Shown here: positions 13,487-26,637 of the stretch, piece after piece
Position numbering within the stretch: the stretch's first letter is position 1
Layout of the letters: every line of letters begins with the position of its first letter
Notes under the pieces: generated by a model
The model's database searches: none
The model's input: the letters and a program-made list of their open reading frames with translations, nothing else
What the model was told of the DNA's origin: nothing
Position numbers and translations under genes: made by a program
Source: Arcanobacterium pinnipediorum
GTDB taxonomy: Bacteria > Actinomycetota > Actinomycetes > Actinomycetales > Actinomycetaceae
Direction of reading: 5' to 3'
DNA: 64,000 bases
Assembly (NCBI RefSeq): GCF_023973165.1
Contig: NZ_CP099547.1
Span: 248,001 to 312,000, forward strand

Positions 13487-16400
13487 TTAGCTCTTGGCAG
13501 AGCGGCGGCGAAGGAGAGTTCCGCCTGCTAATGCTAAGAAGCTAACAATGATAAGCCCACCAGCCATGCTGCCAGTCTTAGCCAACATGCCTCCAGATTG
13601 CTGGACAGAAGAAATAGGTTGTTTCTCTGTTGGCGTTTGAGGAGTGGTAGGCGTTTGAGGTGTAGTTGGTGTAACTGGGGTTGACTTCTTCGGTGAAATA
13701 GTCAGTTCAACCTTAACTTCACCAGAGTTTGCGCCACGTGCGATGACGTGATGCTTACCGGTAGCAAAATCAAGGGGAACTAGCCATTGCGTGCTTACTT
13801 TTCCGGTGGCATCTGCAATGAATGTTCCTAGATCTACTACCCGTGAGTGGACTTCTATCTTCACTTCTTCACCTGGTTTGAAACCAGCAAACGTGAAGGT
13901 AGCAGTTTCGCCGAGCCGTGCGCTGAAGCTTGCTGAATCCGCACGCGGACCAGCTGGGTCCGTTGGGTTAGCCGGATCGGTTGGATCAGCTGGGTTAGCT
14001 GGATCGGTTGGATCAGCTGGGTTAGCTGGATCGGTTGGATCAGCTGGGTTAGCTGGGTTAGCCGGATCGGTTGGATCAGCTGGGTTAGCTGGATCGGTTG
14101 GATCAGCTGGGTCCGTTGGGTCCGTTGGGTCCGTTGGGTCGGTTGGGTCCGTTGGGTCCGTTGGGTTAGCTGGGTCCGTTGGGTTAGCTGGGTCGGTTGG
14201 ATCAGCTGGGTCGGTTGGGTCGGTTGGGTCGGTTGGGTCGGTTGGATCAGCTGGGTCGGTTGGGTCGGTTGGGTCGGTTGGATCAGCTGGGTTAGCTGGG
14301 TCGGTTGGGTCGGTTGGATCAGCTGGATCCGTTGGATCAGCTGGATCCGTTGGATCAGCCGGATCAGTTGGATTTACGATGATGACGTCTGAATCCACGC
14401 TACCGGCATCAATCTCGTCATGTGTTGCCGGGGTTGCCGGATCAGTCTTGAAACATACTTCGGATAACGAAACCCAAGTATTACTGGAGCTTCCCGCTGT
14501 TTGAGTCACATGTAGACGTAGGGTCACTGCATCGCCGTCGCTAAACATAGTACGCAACGAGGATAGATCAATACTCAACCGATCATCCAAAGTGATATCA
14601 CCCAATTGAGTTTGGGTATTATCTGCACCGATAACAGATAGTGAACCAGTGCGAACACGACCATTAGGACCATCGAGTCGATTCGTGATATCCACAGCTC
14701 GCAATGCCGAGGTGTAGTCGAAAGAGAAATCGATATCTAATGGAACCACAGAAGAACCCCACGGAGTATGCCAGATGGTGGAGGTATCACCGTCGAACAT
14801 ATTACGCGCTCCATTTTGTGCATTGACTTCTTCAGCAGGCAAGGTATCAGGAACCGTTACCGCCAAGCACTGCGGGTTTGCTTCCCCATCGAGAAGCTCG
14901 ACCGTGAGATCAGCAGCACCCGAAACAGTCTTTCCTCCAGCAGCCAACTCGAATGGGATTCGAACCGGACCTGATTCTTGGAATGAAGGAACAATGAGCT
15001 TCATGCGCACCTTTGCGTCCTGTCCGGGGGCAATCGTAGGAACAGTAAATGAGGTTATTGCCGTAGCCTCGCCAGCTTGAGCAAGTGGAACAGTAGTTCC
15101 AACGAACTTCCAGCCCTCGGGCAATTGAGCTGTCAATGTAGCATCAGCAATAGGCTGGCTACCAACATTGCGTACAGTAACATCGATGATGTTGCCGCCA
15201 CGGTTCACAGTGGTCTCATCGGTAGAAACAATGGCTGGAATGTTTCCTAGCCAGTCCAAGGAAACAGTGGTGTAACTGATAAATCCGTATCCACTACTGC
15301 CTGGAGCTGGGCTCTCATACAAGATACCGAAGCGACCAGAGGTGAAGTTCCCGTCAGCATCAGGAAGTGGAGTGATCGTCGAATAGCCGGTGAATCCAGG
15401 TTGGAAAGCCTTGGATGCAGACCACGTTTGACCATCGTCATAAGAGATCTTCACCGTACCATTGAGGCGGTCTCCACTATGTGCAGTATTGCTAAAGAGG
15501 AGAATCTTTGCCCGCGGGTCATCAGCTGGAGCATCTGGGAATGCTCGCACAATACCAGCGTTATTATTTGGATCAACTAATGTTTGGTCAATGCTGACTT
15601 CACCATAGGTTTGACCGCCATCTTCAGAAATCGCAATGCGGCGAGCAGTAACGCTTGGTGCGCCACGGTTTGAAGAGCGCGAGTTTACCATGAGGCGACC
15701 ATCGGAGAGTTCAACGACTTTGTTTTCGTCCATGCCGGCGCCGAATGCCTCTCCAGCTTGCCACGTTTGGCCATGATCGTCAGAGTAGACGGAGACTGCC
15801 TGGAAAACTTCACGGCCATTTTGACGTACAGCGTAGGTAAATTGTTGGATCAAACGACCCTTGTGTACCCGATCAGAACGTAGTTGGATACCTTCACCTG
15901 ATGCTGCGAAGCGAGCTCGCATCACATTGGTATCAGGTGTGATATCTGCGGTAATGATGCGAGGTTCAGTCCATGTTTCACCATTGTCCGTTGAGGACAT
16001 AACGGCTGCATGGATGACATTGCGATTATTGGGATCGACGCCGAAGCTGGAACCAGCCAAACCTTGGTTGAAAGATTTGACGAAGAACATAAAGATTTCG
16101 TTAGTTTCACGATCAACGACGTAGGAGGGGTCAGAATAGCCGAATTGTTCGAATCCAGGTTTGCCGGCTGCGATAGTCGTAGCTGGTTCCCAAGAACGGC
16201 CGCCGTCTTTAGAAATGCGCTGAACGATTGAATTCGGGGTTGGAGCATCACCACATCCAGCAGGACGGCCATCCCATGCGGCAAGAATCCATCCGTTGGG
16301 AGCAGTTGTGAGTGCTGGGATGCGGTAGCATGCGTAACCAGCTTGATTTGGTCGCGCAAGGACGACCTGATCGCCGTCGTTGTAATCAGTGGGGATCTCT

Positions 16401-17782
16401 GACGGATCTGGTGCGCCTGGATCTACCGGAGGAGCTTCAGGAGCCAACTCCTGGTAGTGAGCTGTGACCTCAGCGGCAGTGAGCACCCGGTTAAAGACGC
16501 GAACTTCGTCAATCTTACCGTTGAAATTCAGGCCGCCAATTTTATCGAGTGGAGCAGTAAAGGCGTTGGTAGCAGTCCAATCCTTGACCCCAATAAGTTC
16601 ACCGTTAATATACAAGGCAAGGCCGTGCTGTGCGGACTGGGTCCACGTGTATTGATACCACTTGTGGGCTTCAACTATCGCAGATGAATAAGTTAGCACC
16701 ATCCGATCTCCGGCACCAACGTGGACTCCGTTACCAGCTGAGCCATCGGTTAGACGAAGATCGAAAGCGATATTGCCTGAAGTATCGGAAATAACAGATG
16801 TGCGCCGGGTTGGGGTTGCAATTGGACTTACCCAATAAGAGATGGACCAATCCGAATTAGCGCTCAGTTCATGATTGTCAGCAAACGTCATACCGTTACC
16901 GTTGGTTACTTCCAAAGCCTTGCCAGAAATACCTTCATCAGTAAACGATAAGCCAGTAGTGATACCGTTACGCTCGCCTCCTGAATCGTTACCGTCTTCA
17001 TCATCGAAGCTGTAGTGGTGAATCAAACCTTGGGTATCTTCATCACTAGGTTCTTCTGGGGTGACCGGCTCTGTAGGAGTTGAATCAGGTTGTGTTTGGG
17101 CAGTGTATTCACTGGTGACTTCTGCTGCGGAGAGTACCCGGTTGTAGACACGGACCTCATCAATTTTCCCATTAAAGTTCAAGCCACCGACTTTATCGAG
17201 TGGAGGAGCAAAAGCATGGGTGGCCGTCCAGTCCTTAGTGGTGACAAGTTGGCCATTGAGATACATTGATAAACCAGCAGTTGCCGATTGCGTCCACGAA
17301 ACCTGTTGCCATTCGGTGCTAATTGGATCCTTGGAGTAGGTCAAAATCATCGAATCGCCGCTACCAACGTGTGCGCCACGGCCGCGGTCACTGTTTTTTA
17401 GGCGTAAATCAAACGCAATATCGCCTGAGGCATCAGAAAGCACCGATGTGCGCGATGTAGGTTCACTATCTACTTTGAACCAGTATGAAATAGTCCAGTT
17501 TGTTTGGTTGGCGAGATTGTGAGTTTCGGTGAAGGTCATACCTTGACCGTTTGTTACTGCAAGGGACTTACCTGAAACGCTGTCTTGACTAAAAGTAGCA
17601 GTGCTTGTATCGCCATCGCGACTACCAACACTATCCGCGCCAGTTTCTTCGTCAAACGTGTAGCGGTGGATCAATCCGGTGGTTGCGAGGGCGGGTTCGT
17701 CCGGTGGTGAGGCGTAAGCCAAACCGGGCAGAGCAATCAGTATGGTGCTCACAGCGGCGATTGAGGAAGTAAACCGGGACAT
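13487..17782 (-). CDS. Cell-wall-anchored modular sialidase (GH33) with duplicated LamG domains and DPT/DPA stalk
   Basis: An exo-alpha-sialidase that releases terminal sialic acid from host glycans at the cell surface. The order over 1431 residues is: signal peptide (1-24, cut after AYA); two LamG-type lectin-like domains (about 36-232 and 252-446) that are clear duplicates; a GH33 beta-propeller (about 468-845); a NEW3-type beta-sandwich (about 847-960); an F5/8C discoidin-like domain (about 972-1111); a tripeptide repeat stalk (1137-1277); an Ig-like module (about 1280-1368); a TP-rich spacer; and LAKTG (1400-1404) with a hydrophobic helix and RRR tail. Catalytic signs are YRIP (R487 of the Arg triad), CGDAP (D512, likely acid/base), DENKVVEL (685-692), Y800 as nucleophile, and five Asp boxes ([40 protein letters not shown]). 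Shine-Dalgarno AAGGAG precedes the ATG. It stands alone between two terminators. LAxTG signals are usually handled by class E sortases. Confidence 0.95.
13952..14374 (-). repeat. 47-unit, 9-bp coding tandem repeat (Asp/Asn-Pro-Thr/Ala)
   Basis: An uninterrupted in-frame tract of 423 bp encodes 47 copies of the tripeptide D/N-P-T/A (sialidase residues 1137-1277). Units are mostly DPT and DPA. Toward the cell-wall end a higher-order 27-bp unit, DPT-DPA-NPA, recurs about five times. Because each unit is 9 bp, copy-number change would lengthen or shorten the stalk without breaking the frame. Confidence 0.95.
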
Positions 17783-18036: not shown

Positions 18037-19569
18037 TTAGCCGTCGATCTTCTCTGCGTCTTCATCAACCCAGTCGAAGGTACGGGTTACAGCCTTCTTC
18101 CACAGGCGCATCTGGCGCTCGCGTTCTTCTACCGGCATCTGAGGCGAGAAACGCTTGCCTTCCTTCCAGTTGGCGACGACGTCGTCTTCGCCATTCCAGA
18201 AGCCAACTGCGATACCAGCAGCGTATGCGGCACCCAAGGCTGTTGTTTCAGCAACCTCTGGTACGACGACGTCCACGCCGAGAATATCTGCCTGGAACTG
18301 CATGAGGGTATCGTTAGCGGTCATACCGCCGTCGACGCGAAGTTCGGTGAGGTCTGCAGACGAATCTGCGTTCATAGCTTCGAGAACTTCTGCGGTCTGG
18401 AAAGCGGTTGCTTCAAGCACGGCGCGAGCCAAGTGAGCCTTGGTGTTGTACCGGGTCAAACCAACGATTGCGCCACGCGCATCGTCCTTCCAATAAGGTG
18501 CGAACAGGCCCGAGAAAGCCGGAACGAAGTAGACACCGCCGTTATCATCGACACTTGCAGCCAGATCTTCAATTTCTGGAGCAGTGGAAATAATACCGAG
18601 GTTGTCGCGTAGCCATTGAACAAGTGAACCGGTTACTGCGATCGAACCTTCAAGAGCGTAGACCGCTTCTTGATCGCCGATCTTGTAGCACACGGTGGTC
18701 AACAGGCCGTTTTCGGAGGTTACAGCTTCATTGCCGGTGTTAATCAGCATAAAGCAGCCAGTTCCGTAGGTGTTCTTTGCCATACCCTTCTGGAAGCAGG
18801 CTTGACCGAACGTTGCGGCTTGCTGATCGCCTAAAATACCTGCAATCGGGGTGTCAATGAGCAAGGAATTCTTTGAGGCGTGGCCATAGACTTCCGATGA
18901 AGAACGAATTTCTGGCAACATCGACATCGGAATACCCATATCGGCGCAGATGCCTTCATCCCACTGTAGCTTGCGCACATCCATAAGCATGGTACGCGAA
19001 GCATTGGTTACGTCAGTGACGTGGACGCCACCATTGGGCCCGCCAGTTAGGTTCCACAAAACCCAGCAGTCAGTGTTACCGAAGAGGAGGTCTCCAGCTT
19101 CAGCCTTCTCACGAGCGCCCTCGACGTTATCTAAGATCCACTTAACTTTTGGTCCCGAGAAGTAGGTTGCTAGGGGCAAGCCACAGATTTCCTTGTACTT
19201 ATCTGCGCCTTCGTCGCCAGCTAGTTCTCGGACGATTTTATCGGTACGGGTATCTTGCCACACGATAGCGTTGTAGATCGGTTCGCCAGTGTTTTTATCC
19301 CATACGACGGCGGTTTCACGCTGGTTTGTGATACCAATAGCGGCGATTTCGTGACGGTTGATATCTGCTTTGGCCAATGCTTCGCCAACGACCTCGCGAA
19401 TATTATCGCGAATTTCGATGGGGTCATGCTCGACGAGACCAGCCTTTGGGAAAATCTGCTTGTGTTCTTTTTGTCCAACCGAAACGATTTCACCGGAGTG
19501 GTTGAAAATGATGGCACGTGATGATGTGGTGCCTTGGTCGATTGCTAATACGTACTTTTTCTCAGTCAT
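18037..19569 (-). CDS. glpK: Glycerol kinase
   Basis: GlpK phosphorylates glycerol to sn-glycerol 3-phosphate and traps it in the cell. The 510-residue protein has the FGGY-family N-terminal signature [11 protein letters not shown], a [13 protein letters not shown] segment, WLLWN-like substrate regions and the C-terminal [20 protein letters not shown] motif. The length is standard. A Shine-Dalgarno AGAGGA precedes the ATG at 19569. It lies 67 bases after glpF and is probably transcribed with it from the glpF promoter, which carries the proposed regulatory palindrome. A hairpin ends the operon. Confidence 0.98.
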
Positions 19570-19636: not shown

Positions 19637-20383
19637 TTATAGTCCAGCGATGTTGAGCATATTAGCTCCGAAAAGGACACCAGCGAGTATTCCGCCGATG
19701 AGTGGACCAACAACCGGGACCCATGCATATGACCAGTCAGATCCGCCCTTGCCCTTGATAGGTAGCAGTGCGTGCATGATACGAGGTCCGAGGTCACGCG
19801 CTGGGTTGATAGCGTACCCGGTTGGGCCACCGAGGGATGCACCAATAGATACAATGACGAGTGCCACTGCCAACGGACCGATTTCTGTAGGTGTGGAACC
19901 GTTGATAATAACCCACGTCAAGAGAACGAAAGTTCCAATAGCCTCAGTGATGACGTTGGAAGTGTAGTTTCGAATTTCAGGCCCGGTTGCGAACGTACCA
20001 AGGATTTCGGCCTGGTTCTCATGTGCATTGTAGTGATCTTTGTAAGCTAGCCATGCAACGGTTGCACCGATCATCGCGCCAACCATTTGGCCAGCAATGT
20101 AGGTCATGATAGATGCGAAGTTGATGGCTACACCAGGAACAAACTCTTCCGCACCGGTAGCTGCAATGCCGAGGGTTACGGCTGGGTTAAGGTGACCGCC
20201 GGTCTTCCACGCACCATATACACCGATCATCACCGCAAAGCCCCAGCCGAAATTGATGAGCAACCAGCCGGTACCTTTTCCTTTAGATTTGGTAAGCAAT
20301 GTTGTTGCCACAACACCTACACCAAGTGTGATGAGTAGTGCAGTACCCAATGTTTCAGAAATAAAAACTTCTAGCAGAGACAT
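19637..20383 (-). CDS. glpF: Glycerol uptake facilitator (aquaglyceroporin, MIP family)
   Basis: A 248-residue membrane channel for glycerol diffusion. It has six hydrophobic helices and the two half-helix NPA boxes, HLNPAVTLG and YAINPARDLGPR. The aspartate after the second NPA (NPARD) is the usual mark of glycerol channels as opposed to water-only aquaporins. The start ATG at 20383 has AGGAG close upstream. It is the first gene of glpF-glpK; a 19-bp palindrome in its promoter matches one before glpA. Confidence 0.97.
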   Translation of the reverse strand: MSLLEVFISETLGTALLITLGVGVVATTLLTKSKGKGTGWLLINFGWGFAVMIGVYGAWKTGGHLNPAVTLGIAATGAEEFVPGVAINFASIMTYIAGQMVGAMIGATVAWLAYKDHYNAHENQAEILGTFATGPEIRNYTSNVITEAIGTFVLLTWVIINGSTPTEIGPLAVALVIVSIGASLGGPTGYAINPARDLGPRIMHALLPIKGKGGSDWSYAWVPVVGPLIGGILAGVLFGANMLNIAGL

Positions 20384-20505: not shown

Positions 20506-20536
20506 AATATATGCACGGACGTGCACGTTATATCAA
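20506..20536 (-). promoter_or_regulatory. glpFK promoter with palindromic operator
   Basis: On the minus strand TTGATA (20531-20536) and TATATT (20506-20511) look like -35 and -10 boxes about 18-19 bases apart. Between and partly over them lies the palindrome TGCAC-N4-GTGCA (20512-20525; full match 20509-20527). It agrees at 15 of 19 positions with the site upstream of glpA; all four differences are in the centre. Placement between the boxes suits a repressor. Confidence 0.65.
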
Positions 20537-20567
20537 ACACGTTGAAAGTGGTTTCGTTCCACAATGG

Positions 20568-21227
20568 TTAGTTGGACCAGCGTTGGGCTGCCAGCATTTG
20601 CGTCAAAACTTCCTGAGCCTCCGTATAAGAGACTTTTCGGGCGCCTTTAGCTTCGAGATCCCGATACATTTGTGGCTCATGCATAAAATGTGCAACGCCG
20701 CGCCGCAACAAATTCGGCAACGGTTTACGAGCCTCATCCAAATCGCGCATCAAACGGAACCAAAACGTTTGAACTCGAGGTCGCGCAATACACAACGCAT
20801 CGGCAAGAATTCCCTCTTTTTTCAGATCATCAATAATCTCAGCAGCAAATATCCCCTCAGCCAGTACATGCCGGCGTCCATCCATACTCAACGTACGATC
20901 ACTAACCCGAGAATTAGAGGGCATATCATAGATAGGGACAGTCGTTTCACCCTTCGTACACAACTCGATCAGTGCATTGATAGCCCCTTGGCGATCCCAG
21001 GTAGCAGGCGAATCCCAATCAACCATCCCGTGGCGTCGAGGCAATCCAGGCCGATCGCCGTCGTAATAGAAATCATCGAGTGAAACTACCGGGAGGCCGG
21101 TGCGCGAAGTAAACCGCGTCTTTCCACTCCCAGAAGGTCCAGTAACCAAAATAACCTTCGCATGCGGTATCCGCTCAATACCAGGGGGAAGATCAAACAA
21201 GCCGTCGTTGCTAAGTGGAGTGGACAT
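20568..21227 (-). CDS. Uridine kinase-like P-loop NTPase
   Basis: A 219-residue soluble protein with a Walker A loop GPSGSGKT (30-37), then VVSLDDFYYDGDRPGLP and DWDSPATWD segments. These are the layout of the uridine kinase / phosphoribulokinase-like group. The true substrate is unknown. I chose the ATG at 21227 rather than the upstream end of the frame, because a TAAACT -10 box lies 7 bases before it and a terminator for glpC lies just beyond. It sits between glpC and the glpF promoter; a role in glycerol use is not shown. Confidence 0.8.
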   Translation of the reverse strand: MSTPLSNDGLFDLPPGIERIPHAKVILVTGPSGSGKTRFTSRTGLPVVSLDDFYYDGDRPGLPRRHGMVDWDSPATWDRQGAINALIELCTKGETTVPIYDMPSNSRVSDRTLSMDGRRHVLAEGIFAAEIIDDLKKEGILADALCIARPRVQTFWFRLMRDLDEARKPLPNLLRRGVAHFMHEPQMYRDLEAKGARKVSYTEAQEVLTQMLAAQRWSN

Positions 21228-21240
21228 GCCATCTAGTTTA
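21228..21240 (-). promoter_or_regulatory. Candidate leaderless promoter -10 for the uridine kinase-like gene
   Basis: On the minus strand TAAACT (21235-21240) is followed by 7 bases and the ATG at 21227. No ribosome site is placed for this start; the AGGAGG in the hairpin upstream is 27 bases away. Confidence 0.45.
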
Positions 21241-21247
21241 CAACCAA

Positions 21248-21275
21248 CTGCACCTCCTGACTTCAGGAGGTGCAG
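21248..21275 (-). terminator. Hairpin terminator downstream of glpC
   Basis: CTGCACCTCCTG (21248-21259) pairs with CAGGAGGTGCAG (21264-21275), giving a 12-bp GC-rich stem with a 4-base loop, 43 bases after the glpC stop. A T-rich stretch (TTGGTTGT) follows on the minus strand. It probably ends the glpABC transcript. Confidence 0.65.
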
Positions 21276-21317
21276 TGGTGTTATCAACTGTGAACTTATG
21301 CCTACTCGGCACAAACC

Positions 21318-22580
21318 TTAGCGAGCGAAAATATTGCCCAAGCCAAGCCCATGATGAATAACTTGAACCGGGTGGACAACTTTCGCGCCAGTTCCCTTAG
21401 CGATCTGCCACCGGCAGGTGTCAGTCTCACACGCAGCCAGCTTCGGATTTGTTTCCTTCACCATGTCAAACAATGGCTTGCCAACTCGCTGGGAAATCTC
21501 ATACTTTTCCTTCTTTAGCCCATACGTTCCAGCAATTCCGCAACACGGCTGGCCAGATTCGACAACCCGAACACCTGGAATCGTCTCCATCATCCGAATC
21601 GCTGGCATACCAATACCTTGAGACTTAACTTGGCACGGCTGGTGGTAAGGAATCGTAATATCCCAGGAGTGTAACTGGTCAACAGGGAACTCGCCGTCGT
21701 CGATTAACTCTAAGAGGAACTCAGAAAGCTCAACAACCCGGCTACCAACATCGGTAACAACAGGATCATCGATCCCCAAAATTTCATGCGCCTCATGGCG
21801 CAACATGCCAGCACACGAACCAGAAGACCCAATAACCGGCAAATCCTTCCCAGCTTCAGCTAACTGGCGAGCCAACTTCTTCACCTGGGACTCAGCGCGA
21901 CCAAACAATCCGTTTGACTGATGTGCTAAGCCGCAACATCCTTGTTTGGGAACCAATACCTCAAAACCGAGATGTTCGAGAACTTCTACAGTTGCCTTGG
22001 AAGTTTCGACCTCGAAATACCCACCAGCACAGCCGTGGAAGAAGACAACTGGACCGCGCGGAGCAACATAGTTCGGGCCCAACTGTGCATCCCGGGCACG
22101 CTTGTGCTTCTTATACCAGCCACGGAAAGTCTGCATCCGCGCCTTAGGCACCGGTGCATCCCGGTGCACGCCAATAACCTTTTCAACAACTGTGCGAATC
22201 GGTTTATTAGCTAAAGCAGCATTCGCTACCGGAGCAACCGGCGTCATCAGCATTCCTTCAAGGATCGTCTCTGGAATGATACGGTCGCGAAGGGGCATAT
22301 GCCCTTCTTTCATCACCGCACGTGCTTGAGCATTAATTTCAGCAATCTTTACCCCTTGTGGGCACGCGGTTGTGCAAATACCACAACCAGAACAATAATC
22401 GAGAGACATATCCACCGATTCGCCAGCCCGGAACCGTTCTGCTTGCGGACCAACAAATTTTGGTCCAGTAAACAAATCAGTAACGCGAGAAACCGGACAC
22501 TGCGTTTCACAGATTGTACATTTCACACACGAATCAAGTGACATACGGGCCATAGAAGCCTTTGCATAATCGAGGCTCAT
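21318..22580 (-). CDS. glpC: Anaerobic glycerol-3-phosphate dehydrogenase, iron-sulfur subunit C
   Basis: GlpC is the membrane-associated iron-sulfur subunit that passes electrons from GlpAB to menaquinone. The 420-residue protein has two [4Fe-4S] motifs, CVKCTICETQCP and CSGCGICTTACP, and two CCG domains (CCGLAHQSNG and CCGIAGTYGLK) of the type found in heterodisulfide-reductase-like subunits. It overlaps glpB by 4 bases and ends the glpABC operon. A complete men pathway elsewhere in the window supplies its electron acceptor. Confidence 0.96.
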   Translation of the reverse strand: MSLDYAKASMARMSLDSCVKCTICETQCPVSRVTDLFTGPKFVGPQAERFRAGESVDMSLDYCSGCGICTTACPQGVKIAEINAQARAVMKEGHMPLRDRIIPETILEGMLMTPVAPVANAALANKPIRTVVEKVIGVHRDAPVPKARMQTFRGWYKKHKRARDAQLGPNYVAPRGPVVFFHGCAGGYFEVETSKATVEVLEHLGFEVLVPKQGCCGLAHQSNGLFGRAESQVKKLARQLAEAGKDLPVIGSSGSCAGMLRHEAHEILGIDDPVVTDVGSRVVELSEFLLELIDDGEFPVDQLHSWDITIPYHQPCQVKSQGIGMPAIRMMETIPGVRVVESGQPCCGIAGTYGLKKEKYEISQRVGKPLFDMVKETNPKLAACETDTCRWQIAKGTGAKVVHPVQVIHHGLGLGNIFAR

Positions 22581-23776
22581 CGGTTTTCTCCTTCACTCAT
22601 TGCTGACTGCGCAGCAACCCAGGCAGATCCCAACGCAATACCTTCACCGGATTTTTCAACAGGCGCATGTGATCCGCCCAGAATCGATCCGGCAAGATAA
22701 ATATTGCGATACACTACGTTTCCATCCCCATCTACTGGATGCATCTTGTTATCTACGGCAATTCCAGAAGAGAAAATATCTTCGGCTTCACGCACTGGAA
22801 GCTGGAACGTCCGCTCAGTGATTGTGCCATCTGGATCTCGGGTCAGTGATCCAGATTCAAAACCGCCACCGGCATGAATCACGGCATCAACATGCGATAC
22901 CGTCACTCGTCCAGCACGTTGAATATGGACTGCACTAACCACGCCATCGCTGTGATCAAACCCAATAACTTGCGCATTAGTCGAAATATCTATTCGAGAC
23001 GCTTTGGCTGCTTGAACTAAGGCATCGTTTAACCGGCGTCCGGGAACCGAAGGCGGAGTAACAGGAACTTCACTGATACGCACACCTAACTCTTGAGATA
23101 GATAATGATAGGTTTGCGGATCTAAACCAAGAACAGCCGGCAAAACCACAATCTCATCGGGTTGGATGCGTCCGCGTAACGCCGTGAGAATCGCTGCTCG
23201 TCCAGTATCAGTATCTAAGAAGCGTGCGATATTGGTTGCCGCAGAATCAGCTTCATGAGATCGAAGATCGAGATCAATTGAGATAGCACGCGCTGAAACA
23301 TCAACCAATGGAGAACGTGAGAGATTATCGGCGATCAGTTGCGCCGGGAAATCCTTAAACTGCTTGATAGCCACAACTACGAGTTTTTGCCCGTCTTCTA
23401 ACGGCAACAGTGTTGAATGCCGGGCAAAGACTGGGCGTACTGCACCTACCGCCGTCGGAATCAGTGAATTTGTTTCTTGATCTTGAGGCGCGGAGATAAG
23501 CGCTAGTCGCTGAGTGAGCCAACCAATTCCACGCCGAACACCCTCTACTCCGATTGCGGCGTAGGGGTGGGTAGGATCGTCCAAAGTCGCGATGCGCTCA
23601 AAGGGTTTCATCACCGGTTCACCGGCAGGGGTCCAACCGTAAACGTCAAGACTTCCCGTCGAAAGTAAAAGTCCACCTAGACCTTTGGAAATAATATCTA
23701 CCCGATGACCGGCCTCAGTTAGCATCAGGGCTGTTGAAAGACCGGCGAGTCCGGAGCCGATAACAATGACTTTCAT
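22577..23776 (-). CDS. glpB: Anaerobic glycerol-3-phosphate dehydrogenase subunit B
   Basis: GlpB is the second flavoprotein subunit of the GlpABC complex. The 399-residue protein begins with a dinucleotide-binding fold VIGSGLAGLSTALMLTEAG and contains DAVIHAGGGFESGSL and a C-terminal LAGSILGGSHAP segment typical of the subunit. It overlaps glpA by one base and glpC by 4, so all three are translated as a unit. Length and motifs are normal. Confidence 0.96.
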   Translation of the reverse strand: MKVIVIGSGLAGLSTALMLTEAGHRVDIISKGLGGLLLSTGSLDVYGWTPAGEPVMKPFERIATLDDPTHPYAAIGVEGVRRGIGWLTQRLALISAPQDQETNSLIPTAVGAVRPVFARHSTLLPLEDGQKLVVVAIKQFKDFPAQLIADNLSRSPLVDVSARAISIDLDLRSHEADSAATNIARFLDTDTGRAAILTALRGRIQPDEIVVLPAVLGLDPQTYHYLSQELGVRISEVPVTPPSVPGRRLNDALVQAAKASRIDISTNAQVIGFDHSDGVVSAVHIQRAGRVTVSHVDAVIHAGGGFESGSLTRDPDGTITERTFQLPVREAEDIFSSGIAVDNKMHPVDGDGNVVYRNIYLAGSILGGSHAPVEKSGEGIALGSAWVAAQSAMSEGENR

Positions 23777-25509
23777 CAGTTCTCACCTTCTAGATTGGCC
23801 GAAGATGCCACGGCAGCTGGCTGTGGACTAACGACGGATGTTTTTGGCGGATGTGGCCGACCATGCAGGAGCGCTAAATCGCCAGTATCTTGCTTGGCGC
23901 GCGCACTGGGAGCGGGCAGGTGGTCAATATCCAACGTTCCTTGGAGAATCCACTGGTTGAGGGCAGCTTCGCGCATCTGTTCGCCATAGAGCAACGCGAA
24001 CACACCATCGAATCTGTTGGTAGTAAACAGACGCAGCATTGTTGAACTGCGGTCAGCTGCCTGGTCAATCTTGTGGGTGTCTGCAGCGTTGCCATCGTCT
24101 AAATTACGCCGGTAGACCTCGTGCATAATACCTGCGGCGCGCAACGCGCAGAAGGTTCCTTGGCAGGGTCCCATACCAAGACGTGTTTGGCGGCGAACAT
24201 CATCAAGATTAGCTTCTGGCTGGGCGCGCAGTTGATCTTCGATCATGGAACGGGTGACGAGCTCACATTCGCAAATCACTGAATCGTGATCGCGAGTCTT
24301 TTCTACCTTTGCGAGCCGGTCAGAGTTGCGATGAGTGGGCTTGCCTTGTGCTGAGGGGACAGCTTCGGTATCGGTGATACATGGGCGATCTTCGCCCCAA
24401 TGCTCCATGAGCGCATCAACCACATTTTTTGCCATCAACCGGTAGGTGGTGAGTTTACCGCCAGCGATAGTAAACATTCCGGCAATGCCGTCACGTTCTG
24501 CGTGATCAATAATTGCCATACCGCGTGACATGTGGCGCGTATCTGAAGCCGATACGCGCGAATCTTTAACCAGTGGGCGCGCTCCAGCCCAGACGTGAAT
24601 GGCACGAGATTTCTTAAATCCTGGGATGAGGACTTCGCCAGCGTCGAGCATTTGGAGGACTTCATCGTGTTCGATTTCCAGGAAGTCAGGATTCTCAACC
24701 GCCTTATCGGTGGTACCGATAATGGAGACGGTGTGGGCTGGGACGATAATATCGCCGTCGGCTGGATGAATACACCGGTTGATTACGCGGTGGGATAGGC
24801 GATGGTTCATGGCCACCATGATTCCGCGGCCGGGAACGACGTCGACTCCGTGGGCGCCAGCCATTGACGCTACTTGCCCGGCCCATGGGCCAGCGGCATT
24901 GATAACTGCGCGGCAATCGATGTGGAGGTCTTCTCCGGTGCGTTCGTTGTGGCATATCACTGCTGAGACCGCACCGTTGTCACTGACGATGCGCGTGACT
25001 TTATGGTAGGTCAATGCTAGGGAGCCAAGTGCTCGAGCTGATTCGATCAATCCCCAGCACATCCGCCAACCGTCAACGGCTCCATCTTCGACGGCGAATG
25101 CGCGTTTTATGCCGGGGTTGAGGCGTGGTTCCATTTTCAATGCTTGGGCGATTGAGATTTCTTCGCACGGCACATGGGTATCTTTTGCGCCTTGAAGAAA
25201 TTTATCGGAAAAGTCGAGAGAGTCTTCCGGCGTGACGACGAAGAGGCCACCGGTTTCTTCAACGGCGTCTGCGTGAACTCGGCGCATGATGACGTTTTCT
25301 TCGGCGCACTCGGTTGCCGAGTGGGGGTCAGAAACGACGTAGCGTCCACCCGAATGGAGAAGGCCGTGAAAGCGGCCCGAAGTTCCTTGGGCGATATCGG
25401 CGCGTTCGAGCAATATTGCATGGAATCCACGCATAGCTAGATCGCGTAGAATGCCAGCACCGGTAGCGCCACCTCCAACGACGACGACGTCGGTAGATAA
25501 TGTTTTCAT
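23776..25509 (-). CDS. glpA: Anaerobic glycerol-3-phosphate dehydrogenase subunit A
   Basis: GlpA is the catalytic FAD subunit that oxidises glycerol 3-phosphate to dihydroxyacetone phosphate. The 577-residue protein has an N-terminal FAD fold VVVGGGATGAGILRDLAMRG, the HSGGRYVV segment, and a C-terminal Bfd-like [2Fe-2S] domain with CECELVTR and GPCQGTFC. I chose the ATG at 25509 because AGGA lies 8 bases before it; a GTG at 25524 is in frame but overlaps that ribosome site. It is the first gene of glpABC and diverges from the SorC-type regulator, with a palindromic site between them. Confidence 0.96.
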   Translation of the reverse strand: MKTLSTDVVVVGGGATGAGILRDLAMRGFHAILLERADIAQGTSGRFHGLLHSGGRYVVSDPHSATECAEENVIMRRVHADAVEETGGLFVVTPEDSLDFSDKFLQGAKDTHVPCEEISIAQALKMEPRLNPGIKRAFAVEDGAVDGWRMCWGLIESARALGSLALTYHKVTRIVSDNGAVSAVICHNERTGEDLHIDCRAVINAAGPWAGQVASMAGAHGVDVVPGRGIMVAMNHRLSHRVINRCIHPADGDIIVPAHTVSIIGTTDKAVENPDFLEIEHDEVLQMLDAGEVLIPGFKKSRAIHVWAGARPLVKDSRVSASDTRHMSRGMAIIDHAERDGIAGMFTIAGGKLTTYRLMAKNVVDALMEHWGEDRPCITDTEAVPSAQGKPTHRNSDRLAKVEKTRDHDSVICECELVTRSMIEDQLRAQPEANLDDVRRQTRLGMGPCQGTFCALRAAGIMHEVYRRNLDDGNAADTHKIDQAADRSSTMLRLFTTNRFDGVFALLYGEQMREAALNQWILQGTLDIDHLPAPSARAKQDTGDLALLHGRPHPPKTSVVSPQPAAVASSANLEGEN

Positions 25510-25611
25510 GGCATCAATCCTCACTTTTCATCTGAGTGCACCGTTGCAATCTGTTATCTACTGTAGTGATTTGTCACGCCTGGAGCGTATTATGAAAGCC
25601 GAATATAGCGA

Positions 25612-25630
25612 ATATGCACAACTGTGCACG
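25612..25630. promoter_or_regulatory. Palindromic operator between glpA and the SorC-type regulator
   Basis: ATATGCAC-AACT-GTGCACG contains the perfect inverted repeat TGCAC/GTGCA spaced by 4 and matches the site before glpF at 15 of 19 positions. On the minus strand a TGAACA-like -35 (25633-25638) lies just upstream of it for glpA. It could also control the regulator itself on the plus strand. Confidence 0.65.
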
Positions 25631-25686
25631 ATTGTTCATGTAGAGTGGGAGACATTCCATTAGTAGGAAAATAGAAGGCTTTATAC

Positions 25687-26637
25687 ATGTCCGAACGCGT
25701 CACCGCTGCCTATGAAGCAGCAACAATGCACTACGTCCAAGGCGAAACCATGGAAACAATCGCTCGCCGATTAAACGTTTCGCGCTCCACTGTTTCCCGC
25801 CTTATTAAGGTTGCTCGAGAAGAAGGACTAGTCCAGATAACGCTCCACGCACCGCAAGAAACCTCGTCGAAAAACGCCAGATGGCTCTCACAACGCTACG
25901 GTGTGCGCACTCACGTCGTGCCCATTCCATTCCAGGCCAATGAAGCGCGCCGCTTGACGGCAGTGGCTCAAATGGCAGGAGTGTTGATCTCAGGTCTCAT
26001 GGAGCCACACACGGTTATTGGTGTGGCTTGGGGAAATACAGTCTCGGCCATAGCCGACCATCTTGTTCCCCGGCCAGCGGCCGGATCGGTGGTCGTCCAA
26101 CTCAACGGTGCCGCAAACCCATCGACAACCGGAATCCCGTATGCCGGTGCCATCATGGAAGCATTTGGCCGAGCCCACGGAAGCATGGTCCAACACTTTT
26201 CGGTACCTGCCTTCTTCGACTACGCCTCAACAAAAGAAGCTTTGTGGCGCGAGCGCTCCATCGCCTCAGTACGCAAACTCCAAGCAACGGCAGATATCGC
26301 CGTCTTCGGCGTCGGATCGATGACTGGCCGGCAAGCCTCACTCGTCTATTCCGGAGGCTACCTCAGCCCCGAAGATTTAGCGTCTATTAAAGACGACGGC
26401 GTGGTGGGAGATGTTTGCACAGTGCTCATGCGCGCTGACGGCAGCTGGCGGGACTTGGCAATAAACGAACGTGCCTCGGGACCAAACCCAGATGAACTCA
26501 AACAAATCAAGCGGCGGCTGTGTGTGGTATCAGGCGCGGATAAAGTCCTGGCCACCCGCGCAGCCCTGCACGCCGGCGTCGTCACCGATTTAATTATCGA
26601 CGAAGACGCCGCAGCTCGCCTGCACGACCTGGGCTAG
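25687..26637 (+). CDS. SorC/DeoR-like sugar-binding transcriptional regulator, probable glp regulator
   Basis: A 316-residue regulator with an N-terminal helix-turn-helix (about 20-45, METIARRLNVSRSTVSRLIK) and a large C-terminal SorC-type sugar-phosphate-binding domain (about 55-315, with TVIGVAWGNTVSA, VQLNGA and DIAVFGVGSM). Proteins of this family bind a phosphorylated sugar or polyol and change DNA binding. Position opposite glpABC and the shared palindrome make glycerol 3-phosphate or dihydroxyacetone phosphate a reasonable ligand guess; this is inference. AGAAGG lies 8 bases before the ATG. It ends 4 bases from convergent mutY. Confidence 0.9.
   Translation: MSERVTAAYEAATMHYVQGETMETIARRLNVSRSTVSRLIKVAREEGLVQITLHAPQETSSKNARWLSQRYGVRTHVVPIPFQANEARRLTAVAQMAGVLISGLMEPHTVIGVAWGNTVSAIADHLVPRPAAGSVVVQLNGAANPSTTGIPYAGAIMEAFGRAHGSMVQHFSVPAFFDYASTKEALWRERSIASVRKLQATADIAVFGVGSMTGRQASLVYSGGYLSPEDLASIKDDGVVGDVCTVLMRADGSWRDLAINERASGPNPDELKQIKRRLCVVSGADKVLATRAALHAGVVTDLIIDEDAAARLHDLG

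Follow-up and report, generated by a model that had tools for sequence, protein, structure and literature searches.

What controls glycerol use in Arcanobacterium pinnipediorum, and through which DNA sites? The question is raised by a window of 64,000 nucleotides of its genome (contig NZ_CP099547.1, positions 248,001 to 312,000; coordinates below are those of the window unless stated otherwise), in which the glycerol genes glpFK and glpABC lie beside a divergent gene for a SorC-family regulator. A prediction made earlier from the letters alone, hereafter the original prediction, held that a 19-bp palindrome shared by the glpFK promoter and the glpABC/sorC intergenic region defines a candidate glycerol regulon under this regulator. 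The sites, their conservation and their dependence on the SorC orthologue support such a regulon, as far as sequence comparison can tell. In our reading, the divergent SorC protein would be the local regulator of glycerol use, most likely a repressor, acting through the sites at glpFK and glpABC/sorC (probability of roughly 0.86). The regulator-operator pair appears real and widely kept and its target set well supported, which would make the protein a SorC member with an apparently new job.

A palindrome shared by two glycerol promoter regions

The two sites are as the original prediction described them: ATATGCACGGACGTGCACG at 20509-20527 and ATATGCACAACTGTGCACG at 25612-25630 are identical at 15 of 19 positions, the four mismatches are the central four, and both have TGCAC-N4-GTGCA arms. 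The exact 14-bp core lies in the glpFK upstream region (operator 1, TGCACGGACGTGCA, 20512..20525) and between glpA and the divergent SorC gene (operator 2, TGCACAACTGTGCA, 25615..25628); neither is assigned to a strand. Operator 2 extends into an overlapping dyad with one mismatch (TGCACGATTGTTCA, 25625..25638, also without strand), so that the whole reads TGCAC-AACT-GTGCAC-GATT-GTTCA, i.e., three half-sites at 10-bp steps, the third one helical turn further. Each arm has a TGCA core that is a palindrome in its own right, and the motif can thus be read as an inverted or as a direct repeat. Within the window, operator 2 shows only the overlapping 10-bp kind of pair, and operator 1 shows no pair.

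The core is rare. The window holds two copies, for a mean of 0.11 in shuffled sequences (at least two in 1 of 100 shuffles). The genome search suggested with the original prediction returned few hits rather than many at random: there are three exact copies in 1,952,277 bases (none for the reversed-pattern control), two of them in the glp promoter regions. The two glp intergenic regions together span 361 bp, and a post hoc calculation puts the chance of their receiving at least two of three exact matches at ~1e-7. A scan of the genome allowing one mismatch was uninformative (56 matches, 42 for the control). The pattern TGMAC-N4-GTKCA gave 8 places, compared with 2 for the control. Of the five besides the three exact sites, one coincides with the overlapping dyad of operator 2; the others were set aside, three falling within long reading frames and one between convergent gene ends.

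The claim that the glpFK site sits between a -35 and a -10 element is plausible at most. The surroundings of the site on the minus strand do contain the letters TTGATA and TATATT, separated by 19 bp, which could be the two boxes; the pair was not reported by a promoter scan allowing spacings of 16-18 bp. At gathering cut-offs, Rfam had no match in the window.

A SorC-family protein of the DeoR subclass

The regulator gene (25687..26637, plus strand) encodes 316 amino acids with a DeoR-like helix-turn-helix (HTH) and a Sugar-bind domain. The latter, C-terminal and matching PF04198 with 184.9 bits (cut-off 27), places the protein in the SorC family, and the N-terminal HTH is that of the DeoR subclass. 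Residues 6-312 align with Bacillus subtilis DeoR (8r7y) and residues 2-52 with the DNA-binding domain of DeoR (7bhy). The best-scoring solved relative is PDB 3nze (residues 57-312, E 4e-76), named only as a putative sugar-binding transcriptional regulator and presumably from an Arthrobacter; no chain named CggR is among the 13 structure matches. The SorC protein of Arcanobacterium phocae is 86% identical to that of the window.

Assignments to other known regulators fail at the level of domains or models. In the Pfam scan of the regulator, the DeoRC domain is not listed, which sets it apart from GlpR (DeoR/PF00455 family), and neither is IclR_C, with only a weak HTH_IclR match under the cut-off, which sets it apart from GylR. 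The NCBIfam equivalog model of DeoR gives 203.6 bits, far under its cut-off of 420. Moreover, Asn140 of the regulator aligns with K141 of DeoR, which we take to be the lysine that binds deoxyribose 5-phosphate covalently, and this position is Asn in 87 of 88 orthologue sequences. Such a replacement fits a ligand held non-covalently.

The site follows the regulator across genomes

We searched the proteins of 121 genomes of the family. No matches fell between 5.7e-54 and 4.0e-41, and those above this gap were taken as orthologues. They were found in 89 genomes, including that of the window, while 13 had only a weaker match and 19 had none at 1e-20. One locus was taken for each of the 88 other orthologue-bearing genomes. 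One of these genomes (G090) has two SorC-type genes, on contigs C2 and C5, and either of them has a separate glpK within a few kb; one was used for the counts. A divergent glp gene starts at most 900 bp from the SorC start in 84 of the 89 loci (glpA/glpD-like in 57, glpF in 14, glpK in 13), and three locus pieces lack any match to a glp gene (L077, L108, L123). Accordingly distributed is glpK itself, present in 88/89 genomes with the orthologue and in 17/32 without it (p 1e-9). Outside the family, 21 of 295 sampled genomes of the class carry an orthologue at E <=1e-50, and 18 of these 21 were read as at most 3.1 kb from glpK (the exceptions being G214, G324 and G409).

The palindrome accompanies these genes. 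All five members of the genus that carry SorC keep both sites, with at most one mismatch; in the four genomes other than that of the window, the glpF site stands at -137 to -142 from the gene (0 mismatches in three, 1 in the fourth). We then took the best site in each of the 89 SorC upstream regions (the intergenic region where a divergent glp gene is present; for the remaining five loci, ~400 bp). It has 0 mismatches in 33 regions, 1 in 27, 2 in 21, 3 in 7 and 4 in 1, where first-order Markov resampling expects 0.08, 1.55 and 13.7 regions with 0, 1 and 2 mismatches, respectively. Sites with no more than one mismatch are thus found in 60/89 regions for 1.6 expected. The match is closer still outside the family, with 19 of 21 regions at 0 mismatches and the other two at 1 (0.01 and 0.2 expected). 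The sites also show preferences for which they were not selected: the first central position is a purine in 55 and the last a pyrimidine in 58 of the 60 best intergenic sites.

The dependence on the regulator is seen upstream of the glycerol genes themselves. A site with at most one mismatch lies within 300 bp upstream of glpA, glpF or glpK in 60/86 orthologue-bearing genomes (all but the three whose pieces lack a glp gene) vs 0/17 genomes that have glpK and no SorC orthologue (p 4e-8). Conservation in relatives and linkage to the orthologue, on which the original prediction could have foundered, have therefore both turned out in its favour: the two sites are kept in the genus, the one linked to SorC persists through most of the family and beyond, and glpK-bearing genomes without the orthologue lack it. 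With this pairing kept across many relatives, the palindrome is very probably the binding site of the SorC regulator.

Paired sites and a residue of the recognition helix

Many loci contain more than one site. We defined pairs as sites with up to two mismatches and up to 40 bp apart, and found a spacing of 10 or 21 bp in 32 of 37 pairs. Neighbouring dyads 10 bp apart have an arm in common, and for this reason the control kept the best site and resampled its surroundings (200 resamplings). Pairs at 21 bp occur in 16/89 loci for 0.12 expected (maximum of the resamplings 1), and pairs at 10 bp occur in 16/89 loci for 5.6 expected (maximum 13). The 21-bp spacing is strong and the 10-bp spacing moderate. 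Most loci of the family show a single site only.

The sequence of the site also varies with the protein. Position 34 is Ser in 86 of the 88 orthologues with a readable HTH and Pro in two (genomes G005 and G064; loci L103 and L124), where SRS is replaced by SRPTVSR, the recognition-helix sequence of B. subtilis DeoR. An exact TGAAC-N4-GTTCA is found at 2/2 P34 loci vs 1/86 S34 loci (p 8e-4). In the available text on DeoR, its operator is of the TTGAAC type and the bases are contacted by R34 and R39 (PMC11229326). These two residues fall on R33 and R38 of the regulator (in our own numbering of the alignment), which are conserved at >=97%. The S34P link is small in number, and it points to a direct contact between protein and site.

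A probable RNA hairpin at the copy upstream of gap

The third exact copy in the genome (genomic position 1008031) immediately precedes the Shine-Dalgarno sequence of gap, and pgk and tpi come after this gene. The gap product is a type I glyceraldehyde-3-phosphate dehydrogenase (GAPDH) above cut-off; for pgk and tpi, the cut-offs of the best-matching models were not reached. The regulon could thus be wider, with the SorC protein controlling the glycolytic GAPDH through this third site, as CggR does in Bacillus. The match is exact, has a fitting centre and stands just upstream of the ribosome-binding site both here and in G024 (exact with another centre in G005), and CggR, another SorC protein, is given as the repressor of the gapA operon in the available text of PMC11229326. 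Yet the gap leaders of the family tell against it. We read 53 of them (45 with and 8 without a SorC orthologue, out of 116 genomes with a gap match), and in 49 a stem of 5 or more pairs ends at most 7 bases from the Shine-Dalgarno sequence, vs 16% of shuffles and 69/286 leaders of other genes. The stem is present in 8/8 genomes without SorC, with other sequences there. It varies by genus (GTGCAC/GTGCAC, GTGTAC/GTACAC, GTACAC/GTGTAC, GTGTGG/CCACAC), and its arms change in a compensating manner. Even among the five SorC-bearing members of the genus, two have GTGTAC/GTACAC at this place and a third has a mismatched copy, while their glpF sites are still of the TGCAC type.

Covariation was measured in a subset of the 53, ten leaders with the same spacing that were selected by eye: both sides change in 3/6 pairs, 96.7% of cells pair, and the covariation score and the percentage paired were reached by 0/500 shuffles. 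Because these leaders were chosen for their fit to the hairpin, the set leans towards it, and two of the five measures were not above the shuffles (pairs changed on both sides, 119/500; further pair types, 464/500). Elsewhere in the class, such a stem occurs at the same place in 4/29 gap leaders, where the Shine-Dalgarno match is weaker. Since relatives without SorC have the hairpin with other, covarying stems, we favour reading the gap copy as an RNA hairpin whose likeness to the operator is coincidental. On the evidence of the 53 leaders, we set gap aside as a third member of the regulon and consider its control by the SorC protein unlikely, although in this species the protein could bind the leader nonetheless. 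The hairpin, seen, e.g., at L004:5031-5046 (minus strand) and in L125-L176, perhaps acts in mRNA stability or translation start; it had no Rfam match in nine loci tested, and no fitting title among the papers listed in a literature search. The case illustrates that an RNA hairpin can mimic an operator in a motif search.

A model for the regulon and its alternatives

In the proposed mechanism, the regulator would bind TG(C/A)AC-RNNY-GTGCA at two places, upstream of glpFK and between glpABC and sorC, and from the second of these would control its own gene too. Many relatives offer a second site 21 bp away or an overlapping one 10 bp away, and the protein could hold the DNA as a dimer of dimers or tetramer on two half-operators, by analogy with DeoR and CggR. 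Release would occur when a phosphorylated intermediate of the pathway binds the Sugar-bind domain, following the model of DeoR in the available text of PMC11229326. Glycerol 3-phosphate and dihydroxyacetone phosphate are candidate ligands that fit the data equally well, and the second has a precedent in CggR. We infer direct binding, repression over activation, the tetramer and the ligand.

Other readings of the motif must account for the same data. As an RNA element, it would form attenuator hairpins in the glpF and glpA leaders, and on the strand of glpF, operator 1 does have the score of a terminator-like hairpin (1 found for 0.1 expected). Operator 2 has no terminator score, however, and the SorC upstream regions show the opposite of the covarying gap stems: their arms are constant (TG(C/A)AC/GTGCA) and their centre is variable. 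An attenuator would account neither for the absence of the site where SorC is absent nor for 21-bp pairs so far above chance, and we regard it as extremely improbable. The palindrome could instead belong to another regulator of the same promoters, such as a GylR of the IclR type or a global regulator, with SorC binding elsewhere. The genome does encode a single IclR-type protein; the 3.4-kb piece around its gene has no glp gene. Sites of the form TGCAC-TNNA-GTGCA that belong to another regulator also occur in the genus, at a TetR-type locus. Against this, the site follows the SorC orthologue and not the glp genes, being absent from all the SorC-less genomes with glpK, and the S34P change in SorC goes together with a changed site. 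Another owner of the palindrome is highly improbable.

The TGCAC-TNNA-GTGCA sites just mentioned were considered as further members of the regulon and rejected: in four orthologue-bearing relatives, as in G078, which has no orthologue, they lie at a TetR-type/DHA2 efflux locus, which assigns them to another regulator. They are found at L250:2043, L251:2134, L252:2255, L253:2299 and L254:2082, with tandem copies at a spacing of 18 bp at three of these five places.

Several observations weigh against control of glycerol use by the SorC protein as we propose it. No promoter is firmly placed, so that repression is argued by analogy. In 29/89 SorC upstream regions, even the best site has more than one mismatch (21 at two mismatches, 7 at three, 1 at four), and 8 of 30 genera have none upstream of the glp genes (0/6 in g12, 0/3 in g5, 0/2 each in g21 and g29, 0/1 each in g17, g35, g6 and g7; g19 has 1/4), which suggests that the operator or the regulon has drifted there. 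Among the 17 SorC-less genomes with glpK, three have a site with two mismatches, and two assemblies are <90% complete. The genomes compared are related, and the Fisher tests therefore overstate their independence. The S34P link comes from two genomes only. As for the pairs, few genera supply them (7 those at 21 bp, 6 those at 10 bp), and overlap of the motif with itself imposes some of the 10-bp spacing: the expectation is 0.27 with a simpler shuffle and 5.6 with the fair control.

Relation to known regulators

The usual glycerol regulators belong to other families. GlpR of Escherichia coli is a local glp repressor with a phosphorylated inducer; its family (DeoR/PF00455) is unrelated to that of the regulator, and the DeoRC domain has 0 matches in this genome. 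GylR, an IclR family member, resembles the regulator in its job (glycerol control in an actinobacterium) and differs in protein family; the available text of PMC9732521 describes it as controlling glycerol metabolism in Streptomyces. Closer in family is DeoR of B. subtilis, which has the same domain order and HTH, and whose gene adjoins its target operon. According to the available part of PMC11229326, the DeoR operator consists of a palindrome and a direct repeat about two helical turns further, an arrangement like that of the 21-bp pairs at the SorC loci. Unlike DeoR, the regulator is encoded beside glycerol and not deoxyribose genes, and its site is TGCAC, not TTGAAC. CggR of B. subtilis, a SorC protein of another subclass, has an effector domain of the same Sugar-bind type. 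In the same available text, its effector is a triose phosphate, dihydroxyacetone phosphate derepresses its operon, its 45-bp operator lies inside the gapA operon, and its DNA-binding domain differs from that of the regulator (PMC11229326).

A search of the open-access literature, covering titles and the starts of abstracts among the matches listed, found no SorC-type glycerol regulator, which does not prove novelty. If the proposed role is right, it gives a function to a widespread and uncharacterised group of SorC proteins, one close relative of which has a solved structure, and brings one more family into the control of glycerol use. The operator, together with the linked residue, would give a handle on how SorC proteins choose their DNA. 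One may push these likenesses further and picture a DeoR-subclass SorC protein as the triose-phosphate sensor of glycerol use in Actinomycetaceae and neighbouring families, with the S/P residue at the start of the recognition helix setting TGCAC or TGAAC. In a few Arcanobacterium species, the gap leader, with its hairpin matching the operator by chance, would have been captured as well, so that one protein joins the jobs of GlpR and CggR. In this full form, the picture is very unlikely.

Other genes of the locus

The names glpA, glpB, glpC and glpK given to the genes of the cluster, all on the minus strand, are confirmed by NCBIfam models above their cut-offs; for glpF, Pfam gives a MIP channel. 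GlpK, the glycerol kinase (18037..19569), matches NF000756 with 782.5 bits (cut-off 498). Directly upstream of glpK, the glpF-type MIP channel (19637..20383) is a probable glycerol facilitator, with 112.6 bits for Pfam MIP (cut-off 25) and 152.9 bits for the NCBIfam MIP subfamily, under the cut-off of 171.25. GlpC (21318..22580; NF008369, 493.9 bits, cut-off 278), GlpB (22577..23776; NF003724, 519.6 bits, cut-off 327) and GlpA (23776..25509, start taken at ATG 25509; TIGR03377, 638.6 bits, cut-off 552.8) complete the set.

Between glpC and glpF lies a P-loop kinase-like gene (20568..21227, minus strand, start taken at ATG 21227). Its product has no Pfam match and matches uridine kinase models weakly (36 bits for a cut-off of 180). 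A uridine-kinase-like gene is likewise found between glpC and glpF in relatives of genera g1, g32 and g26. Elsewhere in the window, positions 13487-17782 encode a protein of 1431 amino acids. Its domains are of the BNR repeat (sialidase-like) and concanavalin-like kinds, and it also has a long repeat of the TDPADP type and what appears by eye to be a C-terminal cell-wall sorting end.

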